In this document: positions 8,458 through 48,980 of the stretch, one piece after another
How the letters are laid out: each line of letters begins with the position of its first letter
How positions within the stretch are numbered: the first letter of the stretch is position 1
Position numbers and translations under genes: made by a program
Notes under the pieces: generated by a model
Databases searched by the model: none
What the model saw: only the letters and a program-made list of their open reading frames with translations
What the model was told of the DNA's origin: nothing
Origin: Pelagibacteraceae bacterium AG-337-I02
Lineage (GTDB): Bacteria > Pseudomonadota > Alphaproteobacteria > HIMB59 > GCA-002718135
Assembly (NCBI GenBank): GCA_003282155.1
Contig: QBZY01000002.1
Location: forward strand, 62,001-126,000
Reading direction: 5' to 3'
DNA length: 64,000 bases

Positions 8458-9546
8458 ATGAATAATCCATCTCAAAGTTTCGTAAAATTTGAAAAGATTG
8501 ATAAAAGTTATGATGGAGAAGTACTGGTAGTAAAAAACTTAAACTTGGATATTGCTAAAGGTGAATTTGTAACAATGTTGGGTCCATCAGGATCAGGTAA
8601 AACAACAACTTTGATGATGTTAGCTGGATTTGAAACACCTACAAATGGTGAAATATTCTTAGATTCTAAACCAATAAGTAAAATACCTCCTTATGAAAGA
8701 GAAATTGGAATGGTATTTCAAAATTATGCTTTATTTCCTCACATGACAGTTGAAGAAAATTTATCCTTTCCTTTAGAAGTTAGAAAAATACCAAAACCTG
8801 AGACAAAAGAAAAAGTACAGAAGGCACTTGATATGGTTGAGCTTGGTAATTTTGGTACAAGATTTCCAGCACAATTATCCGGAGGTCAACAGCAAAGAGT
8901 TGCTTTAGCTAGAGCACTTGTCTTTGAACCACGTTTGGTATTAATGGATGAACCTCTAGGCGCCCTTGATAAAAATTTACGTGAACAAATGCAATATGAA
9001 ATAAAACATATCCATGACAGAATAGGAATTACAGTAGTATATGTTACACATGATCAAAGTGAAGCGCTAACAATGTCAAATAGAATAGCTGTTTTTAATG
9101 ATGGAGTTGTACAACAATTATCGACACCAGATATTTTATATGAAAAACCTGAAAACTCATTTGTTGCCAAATTTATTGGAGAAAATAATACTCTTAACGG
9201 AGTGGTAACAGATGTTAATGGAGAATCATGTACAGTTGAACTTGATAATGGTTTTGGAAAAGTAAAAGCATTAAAAATAAATGTAAATGAAAAAGGTGAC
9301 AAAACTCAACTTTCAATAAGACCAGAAAGAGTTACTATTGACAGTACAAATCCAGAATCAAATAATTTTGAAGGTAAGATTCAAGAATTAATATATTTAG
9401 GCGATCATATAAGAGCAAGATTAAACGTTTGTGGAAATGATGAATTTATTGTGAAAGTTCCAAACGAAGGAAGTTTTAGTCATAAAGAGGGAGACTTACT
9501 AAATTTAAGCTGGAATCCTGATGATGTTAGGGCTCTCGACATTTAG
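8458..9546 (+). CDS. ABC transporter ATP-binding protein, spermidine/putrescine (PotA) type
   Basis: Walker A GPSGSGKTT, LSGGQQQRVALARAL, Walker B LVLMDEP, C-terminal TOBE-like region. Probable start ATG 8458 (MNNPSQSFVKFEKI) rather than 8407. Confidence 0.9.
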   Translation: MNNPSQSFVKFEKIDKSYDGEVLVVKNLNLDIAKGEFVTMLGPSGSGKTTTLMMLAGFETPTNGEIFLDSKPISKIPPYEREIGMVFQNYALFPHMTVEENLSFPLEVRKIPKPETKEKVQKALDMVELGNFGTRFPAQLSGGQQQRVALARALVFEPRLVLMDEPLGALDKNLREQMQYEIKHIHDRIGITVVYVTHDQSEALTMSNRIAVFNDGVVQQLSTPDILYEKPENSFVAKFIGENNTLNGVVTDVNGESCTVELDNGFGKVKALKINVNEKGDKTQLSIRPERVTIDSTNPESNNFEGKIQELIYLGDHIRARLNVCGNDEFIVKVPNEGSFSHKEGDLLNLSWNPDDVRALDI

Positions 9547-34420: not shown

Positions 34421-35320
34421 ATGAAACAAAAATTAAAATCATATAATTCCCAGACGTATTTAGCATATGCTTTAATTGCTCCAGCTGCACTTTACATAGT
34501 TCTTATTGTTGCATGGCCATTATTGGAAACAATCAGACTTTCATTCACAAATTCAAGTTTAGCTGGAGAAGATTATGTTGGATTTGAAAATTATCAAAAA
34601 ATGCTTTCAAGTAAAAAATTTAATGGGATTGTAACTAGAACTTTTGTTTGGATGTTTTTTTCAGTGTCTTTAAAACTCATTATTGGATTAATTGGTGCTG
34701 TTTTACTAAATGCTAATCTAAAAGGAAGATCAATATTTAGAGTACTAGTTATGCCTCCTTGGGTAGTGCCTATTGCAATTGGAATGTTGGGTTGGTTATG
34801 GTTATACAATGGATATTTTGGAATAATTGCTGGTGTTGGTATGAGAACTGGTATTTTAGATGGTCCATTTGGTTTTCTTGCATACAAGCAAAGTGCTTTT
34901 ATTTCGACAATAATAGCGGATGTTTGGGTTGGAACGCCAATGGTAACAGTTTTTTTTCTCGCCGCAATGCAAGGTGTTCCAAGAGATTTATACGAGGCAG
35001 CTTATTGCGATGGTGCTTCAAGATGGGATAGATTTTTTAAAATTACCCTTCCTCAAATAACTCCAGTAATAATTACAATGTCATTACTGTCTGCGATTTG
35101 GACTTTCAATTCATTTGAAATAATTTGGATATTAACCGAGGGTGGGCCAAGAGGCGCAACAACAACATTAATAATAGATACATACAAACAAGCTTTAGGA
35201 AATTATAAATTTGGAAGAGGAGCAGCAAGAGCTGTAGTTGTCATGATTTTATTAACTTTATTTGCTGGTTTCTACCTAGCTCTTCTTGCAAGAATAAATA
35301 AGAAAATTTCTCATGAATAA
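34421..35320 (+). CDS. ABC sugar transporter permease (MalF type)
   Basis: LAYALIAPAALYIVLIVAWPLLETIRLSFTN; EAAYCDGASRWDRFFKITLPQITP loop motif. Confidence 0.9.
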   Translation: MKQKLKSYNSQTYLAYALIAPAALYIVLIVAWPLLETIRLSFTNSSLAGEDYVGFENYQKMLSSKKFNGIVTRTFVWMFFSVSLKLIIGLIGAVLLNANLKGRSIFRVLVMPPWVVPIAIGMLGWLWLYNGYFGIIAGVGMRTGILDGPFGFLAYKQSAFISTIIADVWVGTPMVTVFFLAAMQGVPRDLYEAAYCDGASRWDRFFKITLPQITPVIITMSLLSAIWTFNSFEIIWILTEGGPRGATTTLIIDTYKQALGNYKFGRGAARAVVVMILLTLFAGFYLALLARINKKISHE

Positions 35321-36152
35321 ATATAATACGTTAGAAAAAATACTTATCTATTCAGGTATTTTAGTCTTTATGACTTTTATACTTTTGCCTTTTGTAGAAA
35401 TGTTCTATGCATCTCTCCGTCCTTTAGATCATTTATTTCGATCACCATATCAATTTTATTCTGATGATTTATCTTTTTGGGCATATAGAGAAATGTGGAA
35501 TACAGTTCCAATGCTTGGAAGATATATATTTAATAGTTTTTTTTTAGCGACTTCAGTTGCAGTAATAACACTTATTTTTGTAATCCCAGCAGCATATTCT
35601 TATGCTCGTTTCAAATTTCCAGCAAAGAATACAAGTCTATATGTATTGCTTGCAATAAATATGTTCTCAGGTGCTGTACTTTTAATTCCTTTATATAAAG
35701 TTTTAAGAACTTTTGGTTTGTTGAATAGTTATCAAGCAATGATTGTACCAGGTGTCGCCTTTTTAATACCTACAGCAATATGGTTATTAAAATCATACTT
35801 TGAAAAAATACCAATTGATTTAGAAGAAGCTGCTTTTGTAGATGGGGCTTCAAGAGTACAGATCCTACGTCATATAATAGCTCCACTTAGTACTCCTGGA
35901 TTGGTTGTAGTTGGAATATATGCATTTATTGGCGCATATGCACAACAGTTCTTATTTGCAATAACGTTTAATCAAAAAAAAGAATACATGCCTATACCAT
36001 CAGGGCTCTATGAATTTATAGGATATCAAAGTGTTAAATGGAATGAAATGATGGCAGCTTCTCTTGTTGGGATAGCACCTGTTTTATTAGTTTTTATTTT
36101 TTTACAAAAATATATTGTTGAAGGACTTACTGCAGGAGCAGTAAAAAACTAA
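35313..36152 (+). CDS. ABC sugar transporter permease (MalG type), copy 1
   Basis: EEAAFVDGASRVQILRHIIAPLSTPGLVVVGIYAFIGAYAQQFLFAITF. Confidence 0.92.
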   Translation: MNKYNTLEKILIYSGILVFMTFILLPFVEMFYASLRPLDHLFRSPYQFYSDDLSFWAYREMWNTVPMLGRYIFNSFFLATSVAVITLIFVIPAAYSYARFKFPAKNTSLYVLLAINMFSGAVLLIPLYKVLRTFGLLNSYQAMIVPGVAFLIPTAIWLLKSYFEKIPIDLEEAAFVDGASRVQILRHIIAPLSTPGLVVVGIYAFIGAYAQQFLFAITFNQKKEYMPIPSGLYEFIGYQSVKWNEMMAASLVGIAPVLLVFIFLQKYIVEGLTAGAVKN

Positions 36153-36153
36153 A

Positions 36154-36993
36154 TTGGATAAATATAATTTACACGAAAAGATAATCTTATATTTAGGTAT
36201 ACTAGTTTTCATGACTTTTATACTTCTACCGTTTGTAGAAATGTTCTATGCATCTCTCCGTCCTTTAGATCATTTATTTCGATCACCATATCAATTTTAT
36301 TCTGATGATTTATCTTTTTGGGCATATAGAGAAATGTGGAAAACTGTTCCAATGTTGCCGCGATATATTTTTAATAGTTTTTTTCTTGCTAGTGTTACAT
36401 CTTTAATTACTTTGTTATTTGTTATTCCTGCCGCTTATTCTTATGCTCGTTTCAGATTTCCTTTTAAGAATTCATCTTTATATATTCTATTAGCAATAAA
36501 TATGTTTTCAGGTGCTGTACTTTTAATTCCATTATATAAAGTTTTAAGAACTTTTGGTCTTCTTAATACATACCAAGCAATGATTGTACCAGGTGTCGCC
36601 TTTTTAATACCTACAGCAATATGGTTATTAAAATCATACTTTGAAAAAATACCAATTGATTTAGAAGAAGCTGCTTTCGTTGATGGAGCTTCAAGGGTTC
36701 AAATTTTAAGACACATTATAGCTCCACTTAGTACCCCGGGATTAGTTGTTGTGGGCATATATGCATTTATAGGATCGTACGCTCAACAATTTTTATTTGC
36801 AATTACCTTTAATCAAAAAAAAGAATACATGCCTATACCATCAGGGCTCTATGAATTTATTGGTTATACAACTGTAAAGTGGAATGAAATGATGGCAGCA
36901 TCTTTAGTGGGAATAGCCCCTGTATTAATTATATTTCTTTTCTTACAGAAATATATTGTTGCAGGATTGACATCTGGTGCTGTTAAAAATTAG
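36154..36993 (+). CDS. ABC sugar transporter permease (MalG type), tandem duplicate copy 2, TTG start
   Basis: Same length (279 aa) and nearly the same protein as 35313-36152; begins TTG GAT AAA TAT AAT where copy 1 begins ATG AAT AAA TAT AAT. Confidence 0.9.
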   Translation: MDKYNLHEKIILYLGILVFMTFILLPFVEMFYASLRPLDHLFRSPYQFYSDDLSFWAYREMWKTVPMLPRYIFNSFFLASVTSLITLLFVIPAAYSYARFRFPFKNSSLYILLAINMFSGAVLLIPLYKVLRTFGLLNTYQAMIVPGVAFLIPTAIWLLKSYFEKIPIDLEEAAFVDGASRVQILRHIIAPLSTPGLVVVGIYAFIGSYAQQFLFAITFNQKKEYMPIPSGLYEFIGYTTVKWNEMMAASLVGIAPVLIIFLFLQKYIVAGLTSGAVKN

Positions 36994-37069
36994 AGAAATA
37001 CACAAAATCTAACTTGCTTCATAGAGCCAGTTAATGTTATCTCTTCCCTATAATTTAAATGGAGGAAAT

Positions 37070-38281
37070 ATGAATTTCAAAAAACTATCTTCATTTCTTA
37101 CAATTGCTATACTTTCACTAGTTGGTTTTAAAGCGTATGCAGCTGACGTACACGGAGTATTCTGTGGTAGTGAACTTCGACCTAATTATGTTGAAATAGC
37201 TGATAAGTATATGGAAGACAATCCTGGAGTTAACGTAACTTTAGAAGCTGTTCCTTGGGGAACATGTCAGGACAAAGTAATTAATCTTGCTATTGCAGGT
37301 GATCCTGTTGCTTTTTCATATGTTGGATCTAGAACACTAAAAGGTCTTGCAGAAAACGGACATATTTTAGAAACAAATATTCCTGCTTCACAAAAATCAA
37401 TGTACCAGCCTGGTATCTTAAATACAGTAACACACATGGGTAAAACTTGGGGTTTTCCTCACGCATTTTCAACTAAAGCACTTTTTATGAATTGTGGTCT
37501 TTTAGAAAAAGCAGGTGTTGCATGTGAGGGTCCTAATACTTGGGATGATTTATATTCAATGGCTGAAGCAGTAACAAATAATGTTGATGGAGTGTCAGGA
37601 ATTGGACTAGCTGGTAAAGATTTTGATAACACCATGCATCAATTCCTAAACTACTTATATAGTAATGGGGGACAAGTTATTGATCCAATGTCAAATGAAA
37701 TAACTTTGGATTCATCTAATACTGTTGAGACATTAGAATTTTATGGAAAGCTTGCGAACGTTTCTCAAGAAGGTCCTTTAGCTTGGGAAAGATCTCAGTT
37801 AACAGAACTATTTAATGATGAAAAAATTGCTATGTATATTAATGGACCTTGGGGTAGAGGTCAGCATAAGGAAGGTCTAGATGTTAAAACAGTAAGAATT
37901 CCGGCTGGACCACAAGGAAGTCAAGGTACTCTTTTAATCACTGATAGTGTTGCAGTTTTCTCAAACACAGGTGTTGAAAAAGAAGCAATGGAATTAGCTA
38001 GTATAATCACATCAGGTGACTCTCAATACAGTCTTGATACTGATTGGGGCCTAACACCAATTATGCAATATCCTCAAATTGGAAGTGAAGCTCCATACAA
38101 TGAAGATTATTGGATGATGTTTATTGATGCTATTGGCGATGGTGGACCAGAGCCACTATTTGTAGACTATAAAGCTTTTCAAACTGTTATGAACTCTATG
38201 ATCCAGGGTGCAATTCTTGGTGAAGGAGATGCTGCTGATTTAGTAGCTGAAGCAGCTGAAGAGTTAGAAGAATACAAATAA
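37070..38281 (+). CDS. ABC sugar transporter solute-binding protein
   Basis: SD GGAGG before ATG 37070; signal peptide MNFKKLSSFLTIAILSLVGFKAYA; AWERSQLTELFNDEKIAMYINGPWG typical of family 1 sugar SBPs. Confidence 0.9.
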   Translation: MNFKKLSSFLTIAILSLVGFKAYAADVHGVFCGSELRPNYVEIADKYMEDNPGVNVTLEAVPWGTCQDKVINLAIAGDPVAFSYVGSRTLKGLAENGHILETNIPASQKSMYQPGILNTVTHMGKTWGFPHAFSTKALFMNCGLLEKAGVACEGPNTWDDLYSMAEAVTNNVDGVSGIGLAGKDFDNTMHQFLNYLYSNGGQVIDPMSNEITLDSSNTVETLEFYGKLANVSQEGPLAWERSQLTELFNDEKIAMYINGPWGRGQHKEGLDVKTVRIPAGPQGSQGTLLITDSVAVFSNTGVEKEAMELASIITSGDSQYSLDTDWGLTPIMQYPQIGSEAPYNEDYWMMFIDAIGDGGPEPLFVDYKAFQTVMNSMIQGAILGEGDAADLVAEAAEELEEYK

Positions 38282-47900: not shown

Positions 47901-48980
47901 TTATTTAAAAGCCTGATTTGAACTATCAAATAATTGGCATCTTCCAGCAGGGAAACCAACTTTTACAGTATCTCCAACTTTGATATCTGAATGTCCCTCA
48001 GCTTCAGCAACTAATGGCTCTCCATCTTTTTCAAGGTATAGATAAGTGACGTCACCAAGTTTTTCGACAACGAACACTTTACTTTCCCAAGAACCATCTG
48101 AATCACCATTTACCACTAAGTGCTCAGGTCTAATGCCTAAAGTTACTGCATCACCCTCAGAAGATGAAGCTGACAATTTAGGGACTGATATTTTTGACAT
48201 TCCCATAATATCAACTTCAGTAGAGTCAGCACTTTTGCTTAATATTTTTGAAGGCATAAAGTTCATTTTAGGTGATCCTATAAATCCACCAACAAACATA
48301 TTATTTGGCTTATCATATAATTCTAAAGGAGAACCTTTTTGAGAAACAATACCTGTATCAAGAACAACAATATCGTCAGCAAGAGTCATTGCTTCAGTTT
48401 GATCGTGTGTTACGTATATCATTGTTGCATCTAATTCATTATGAAGTTTAGCTAACTCAACTCTCATTTGAACTCTTAATGCAGCATCAAGGTTTGAAAG
48501 TGGTTCATCAAATAAGAAAACTTTCGGTTTTCTAGTAATTGCTCGACCAATTGCAACACGCTGTCTTTGACCACCAGATAATTGCTTTGGTTTTCTTAGT
48601 AAGTAGTCTTCAATTTGAAGAATTCTTGCTGCCTCATTAACTCTCTCATTAATTTCATCTTTAGATCTTTTTTCTAATTTCAATCCAAATGCCATATTAT
48701 CAAATACAGTCATATGCGGGTATAATGCATAAGACTGAAACACCATTGCAATATTTCTTTGTTTTGGTGGTAAATCATTTACTACTTGGCCATCAATTGA
48801 AATTGTACCTGAATTAATGTCTTCTAATCCAGCTATCATTCTCAGCATAGTTGATTTTCCACAACCACTAGGTCCAACTAAAACTGTAAATGATTGGCTC
48901 TTAATATCTAAAGAGATATCTTTAATTACGTGAACATCTCCAAAATATTTATTTACTGTATTAACATTTATATCTGCCAC
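47901..48980 (-). CDS. ABC sugar transporter ATP-binding protein (UgpC/MsmK/AglK type)
   Basis: GPSGCGKSTMLRMIAGLE, LSGGQRQRVAIGRAI, FLFDEPLSNLDAALR; probable GTG start at 48980 after AAAGGAGG (ORF track extends to 49031). Confidence 0.92.
   Translation of the reverse strand: MADINVNTVNKYFGDVHVIKDISLDIKSQSFTVLVGPSGCGKSTMLRMIAGLEDINSGTISIDGQVVNDLPPKQRNIAMVFQSYALYPHMTVFDNMAFGLKLEKRSKDEINERVNEAARILQIEDYLLRKPKQLSGGQRQRVAIGRAITRKPKVFLFDEPLSNLDAALRVQMRVELAKLHNELDATMIYVTHDQTEAMTLADDIVVLDTGIVSQKGSPLELYDKPNNMFVGGFIGSPKMNFMPSKILSKSADSTEVDIMGMSKISVPKLSASSSEGDAVTLGIRPEHLVVNGDSDGSWESKVFVVEKLGDVTYLYLEKDGEPLVAEAEGHSDIKVGDTVKVGFPAGRCQLFDSSNQAFK

Follow-up and report, generated by a model that had tools for sequence, protein, structure and literature searches.

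The window analysed here is a stretch of 64,000 nucleotides from Pelagibacteraceae bacterium AG-337-I02, the draft genome of which comprises 1.45 Mb in 40 contigs and is 79% complete. It contains an operon that encodes a GH20 hexosaminidase, a Gfo/Idh/MocA oxidoreductase, a MalF-type permease, two MalG-type permeases, a binding protein, a SIS-domain sugar isomerase, NagA, and a NagB-II-like deaminase. The joint presence of the GH20 hexosaminidase, NagA and NagB-II suggests an amino sugar as substrate, and the gene content as a whole suggests that the operon may serve in amino sugar uptake and breakdown.

The permease and binding protein genes, like all features of the locus given below, lie on the + strand. 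The MalF-type permease (34421-35320; Pfam BPD_transp_1) is present in a single copy, has SugA and MalF as its nearest solved relatives, and ends in a stop codon that overlaps the start of the first MalG-type gene. This gene, copy 1 (35313-36152), runs from an ATG start to a TAA stop, while copy 2 (36154-36993) begins with TTG one nucleotide past the stop of copy 1. Both copies are intact and comprise 279 codons plus stop each. An earlier note on this DNA had given the same coordinates, lengths, 1-nt spacer and ATG and TTG starts, and all of these are as described there. The best solved relatives of the MalG-type permease are SugB and MalG, its EAA loop motif LEEAAFVDGAS is found at codons 170-180, and PF00528 (Pfam) scores above cut-off in all three permeases. 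The MalF- and MalG-type proteins form a heterologous pair, encoded in the same operon as the sugar-binding protein (SBP_bac_1, 37070-38281), which is of a type present at every two-copy locus. Only MalG is doubled; MalF and the binding protein are single. No MalK/UgpC-type ATPase gene is found among the scanned operon genes. Elsewhere in the genome, four UgpC-type ATPases score above cut-off, including one at window positions 47913-48977. Within the window, MalK/UgpC-like ATPase genes occur in other clusters at 8482-9531 (+) and at 47913-48977 (-), and may be candidates for the power source of an importer that lacks its own ATPase.

At the nucleotide level, 138 of 840 positions distinguish copy 1 from copy 2 (83.6% identity). 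Counted by codons, there are 75 synonymous and 28 amino acid changes, and the residue is the same in 252 of 280 codon columns. The longest identical runs measure 110 nt (35391-35500, partner 36232-36341), 104 nt (35733-35836, partner 36574-36677) and 53 nt (35967-36019, partner 36808-36860). None of 20,000 shuffles of the per-codon differences yielded identical-codon runs as long as the top three observed (36, 34 and 17), which excludes chance clustering; the identical blocks of about 110, 104 and 53 nt amid diverged stretches that the earlier note had described are thus present and exceed what shuffling yields. Some near relatives carry the first tract, too. The third shows 1-8 differences in near relatives, and the second, although identical between the two copies of the window, differs at 10-15 positions between the copies of eight near relatives. 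As to the direction of conversion in this second tract, each window copy is about as far from the copy 1 genes of the relatives as from their copy 2 genes. The pair of sequences that had been put forward as an example of divergence, ttgttgaatagttat versus cttcttaatacatac, is a genuine diverged island of 15 nt (35718-35732, partner 36559-36573), which covers codons 136-140 with S139 in copy 1 and T139 in copy 2, and which has identical sequence on both sides, for about 50 and 104 nt.

The same tandem, with a period of 841 nt, is found in 60 loci that represent 43 distinct pairs, and the two-copy locus keeps its place (synteny) across these pairs. The related records come almost entirely from marine single cells entered as uncultured Alphaproteobacteria (AG- and AH- isolates), joined by MarineAlpha5_Bin5 and a small number of metagenome bins. 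Judging from these names, a low G+C content and the genes present, the group is presumably AEGEAN-169/HIMB59. The 43 pairs are mutually related, hence the counts are not independent. The junction is constant, consisting of a stop codon, a short spacer (one base except at one frameshifted locus) and TTG, and the start of copy 1 is always ATG. Median dS between orthologues is 1.17 for copy 1 and 1.00 for copy 2 (about 1.0-1.2), and pooled dN/dS amounts to 0.038 and 0.031, respectively, indicating strong purifying selection on both. Judging from an orthologue dS of about 1 combined with low dN/dS, the duplication is old and both copies are functional. The proposal of a tandem duplication with mosaic identity holds, whereas its description as recent does not, being ruled out by 43 distinct pairs of the same tandem and by these dS values. 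Two individual records deserve mention. At L076:4001-4838 (identical to the L025 sequence), copy 1 differs in length by one base close to the 3′ end, through either a real mutation or a sequencing error, and loses its frame past about codon 266; copy 2 is intact. Around position 4789 of L095, the MalG gene is joined to an operon copy in inverted orientation (NagB-II, NagA, SIS and SBP on the other strand).

Comparison among genomes indicates how the mosaic arose. Counting identical runs of at least 40 nt, the two copies of one genome share a mean of 183 nt. Random reassignment of copy 2 to other genomes lowers this to 29 +/- 8 nt (at most 69 nt in 20,000 shuffles), and a partner taken from the nearest relative gives 88 nt (Wilcoxon p = 5e-7 versus own copies). 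The positions of the tracts vary by genome, from no tract of at least 40 nt in L078 up to 706 nt in L036, L023 and L066. Own copies are closer to each other than orthologues are at approximately nt 60-180, 450-540 and 630-660 of the gene, and the islands strongly display the reverse. Likewise, the number of copy-label changes on segment trees is low at nt 685-840 (1), 0-60 (3) and 190-420 (3), and high at nt 78-190 (18) and 440-560 (24). Conversion sometimes crosses the island at TM2, as in copy 2 of L045 and L054 and in copy 1 of L079, and no tract of at least 40 nt extends into the first 20 or the last 80 nt of the gene. Given that the location of the tracts is not constant among genomes, we regard recurrent partial gene conversion between the adjacent copies as practically certain. 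The excess of sharing (183 versus 29 +/- 8 nt) and the shifting tract positions back the earlier idea of ongoing conversion with partial homogenisation. An embedded RNA element or another constraint at the nucleotide level, which had been named as a competing cause of the identical blocks, would fix the position of the blocks everywhere; the blocks are not fixed in position and are no better conserved between genomes than other parts of the gene, and this explanation is rejected.

Certain differences between the copies persist. Three positions never cross over in the 43 pairs, namely the start codon (ATG/TTG, M1/L1), Q239/T and S240/T, and the same is true for residue 274, which is A (once C) in copy 1 and S in copy 2. 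Codons 239-240, at 36027-36032 in copy 1 of the window (partner 36868-36873), read QS versus TT in 43 of 43 pairs each. S139/T, G69/P and I12/L are fixed with one or two exceptions in the 43 pairs. These copy-specific residues, and with them the weak TTG start of the second gene, are kept across lineages. Silent divergence follows a similar pattern: subtracting the value for orthologues from that for own copies gives +0.18 within 4 codons of fixed sites and -0.04 elsewhere, a contrast that was attained in only 1-5 of 277 rotated site patterns, or in only 1-5 of 230 if the comparison is confined to interior codons. In primate opsins, a peak of divergence around fixed sites under conversion is the reviewed signature (PMC3924837). 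Here, the peak is weakened as evidence by kinship among the genomes, and also because the fixed sites may mark regions that rarely convert for other reasons. Codons of approximately 194-203 are diverged without containing a fixed residue. On balance, selection probably maintains the differences between the copies.

The tandem is also linked to the type of binding protein. In all 45 of 45 two-copy loci the binding protein is 91-100% like that of the window, whereas the older single-copy group (21 loci) has another binding protein, 74-79% like that of the window. The two-MalG state is fully tied to one binding-protein type, except for three fused single-copy genes and for contigs cut or broken in the gene. 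The single-copy appearance of L061, L111, L113 and L114 is due to contig ends that cut the gene. The intact exceptions are L046, L065 and L094. In L094 and L046, the 5′ part is copy-1-like and the 3′ part copy-2-like, as expected from crossover between the copies, and L065 is similar, belonging to a lineage with nearly homogenised copies; by their sequence, all three seem to be products of a crossover that fused the two copies. To treat the single-copy relatives as one ancestral group is consequently only partly right, given that these three are fused genes of the two-copy lineage. When the window region 34421-38281 is compared with L098, L099, L104 and L106, which have a single MalG, the flanking genes are 86-95% identical to the window, as opposed to 70-75% for MalF, MalG and the binding protein. 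Judging from these identities, close relatives swap the whole MalF-MalG-SBP block in one piece. The tandem would then be part of one transporter allele, replaceable by a single-MalG allele. L053 displays the opposite, with 83-91% identity to the window from GfoMocA to the binding protein and 68% for GH20 and NagA.

Several other explanations were considered for these data. The diverged islands could be regions that rarely convert for mechanical reasons, either as ends of the repeat or as stretches too diverged to pair, with the fixed residues as mere passengers. Divergence does reduce the chance of pairing, fixed sites and silent divergence coincide wherever conversion is rare, notably near both gene ends, where the lack of long tracts fits as well, and the region at codons 194-203 is diverged in spite of having no fixed site. 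However, the 15-nt island sits in the interior of the gene between two identical tracts, the contrast in silent divergence persists with interior codons only, and the copy-specific residues are unchanged despite an orthologue dS of about 1 (with dN/dS near 0.03), which altogether makes this explanation unlikely. Even less likely, in our view, is a model of dosage only, in which two interchangeable MalG subunits are homogenised by conversion. The high proportion of shared residues speaks in its favour, and concerted evolution in prokaryotes is often tied to gene balance (PMC6053082); but interchangeable subunits are at odds with strict paralogue-specific residues in 43 of 43 pairs, with a weak TTG start that is always in copy 2, and with the doubling of MalG alone, not of MalF or the binding protein.

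The doubt that the second copy is a product of assembly, raised in the earlier note, is met by dozens of separately assembled genomes that retain two copies. An artefact of assembly or amplification, by which the assembly of single-cell reads creates the identical tracts or even the tandem, seems hardly credible to us. Most records are indeed single-cell assemblies, and the inverted junction within the gene of L095 is typical of amplification chimeras; yet 43 distinct pairs share the same geometry, one of them (L051) derives from a metagenome bin, and collapse by an assembler would presumably require that the sequence on either side be identical over a k-mer length, which exceeds the tracts of the window. 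Such doubt applies most to the 706-nt tract and to the fused genes. Concerning the origin of the tandem, unequal recombination may have joined two already divergent alleles, followed by conversion, which is compatible with an old pair under conversion and selection. Exchange of the transporter block as a unit between lineages would provide for such an event, and the tree of the 3′ segment places most copy 1 genes with the single-copy relatives. This origin is possible but doubtful, since tree support is weak and conversion blurs the trees, and since the period of 841 nt, the gene plus one base, is equally well explained by plain tandem duplication.

Placement of the fixed residues in the transporter may provide a clue to their role. 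By sequence alignment to MalG and SugB, on which the loop placement is based, codons 239-240 align with residues 256-257 of E. coli MalG, as counted from the alignment, between TM5 and TM6 in the predicted P3 scoop loop. In PotC, the periplasmic P3 loop is a scoop loop that enters the pocket of the binding protein, and such a loop is reported for MalG and SugB as well (PMC11414716). A predicted structure of low confidence (mean pLDDT 53.6), taken as a hint for loop positions only, puts residue 139 in the loop that follows TM3 and residue 69 at the beginning of TM2; residue 274 is in the C-terminal tail. The EAA loop, which forms the contact to the ATPase, is homogenised in many genomes. Fixed differences that include loops facing the binding protein, together with a homogenised ATPase-facing EAA loop, would point to a division of labour. 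The alternative pairings and different specificity that had been suggested for the three permeases become likelier with these differences; the functional difference itself we infer.

Based on this dataset, we consider it probable that conversion homogenises an old tandem pair of MalG-type genes, save for the sites at which selection prevents this. By recombination, patches of one copy are repeatedly overwritten by its neighbour, and in three genomes the locus apparently crossed over, leaving a single fused gene. Conversions that erase the fixed sites would be rejected by selection, as the two MalG subunits may work differently. Either MalG would combine with the shared MalF-type subunit and binding protein and with an ATPase from another locus, so that two versions of the transporter would result, which differ in the scoop loop and in further loops on the side of the binding protein. 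Translation of copy 2 is probably weaker and coupled, by reinitiation at TTG from the stop of copy 1. Streamlined marine bacteria are known for their low number of gene duplications, as stated for SAR11 (PMC10308909), and a duplicate that is retained for so long needs a reason. Two functional versions of the transporter may be the likeliest reason, to which we assign about even chances. More tentatively, with one binding protein and one MalF-type subunit serving two MalG scoop loops, substrate choice might also take place at the release step. If this were true, conversion would keep the remaining parts of MalG matched to their shared partners. In any case, the locus singles out transporter-loop residues that can be tested, and the natural fusions and swapped cassettes are ready-made experiments.

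Like the CUT1 importers, such as MalFGK2E of E. coli and mycobacterial LpqY-SugABC, the system combines MalF- and MalG-type permeases, an EAA loop and an extracellular binding protein; unlike these, it has two MalG-type permeases per one MalF-type permease and one binding protein, without an ATPase gene among the scanned operon genes. It resembles known cases of concerted evolution in prokaryotes (tuf, mtrA, and genes of ammonia oxidation; PMC6053082) in that paralogues are closer than orthologues and synteny is kept, but here the gene is only partly concerted. The words permease and transporter are absent from the text of that survey (PMC6053082), and no description of a bacterial permease pair of such kind was found in the literature searched. 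What is new here is how old the pair is, the strictness of the fixed differences and the peaks of silent divergence that accompany them, the link to one type of binding protein, the fused genes and the cassette exchange. A pattern of conversion versus selection is documented mainly for eukaryotes in the papers found, and the present locus would add a clean bacterial case in which conversion homogenises a pair while selection guards a handful of residues. The closest parallel is provided by the primate red and green opsin genes under the model of Teshima and Innan (PMC3924837), likewise an old tandem with conversion except at a few residues, and with a peak of silent divergence there. In contrast to the opsins, the pair described here is bacterial, its members lie 1 nt apart in one operon in dozens of cells, and the functional role of its residues is putative.
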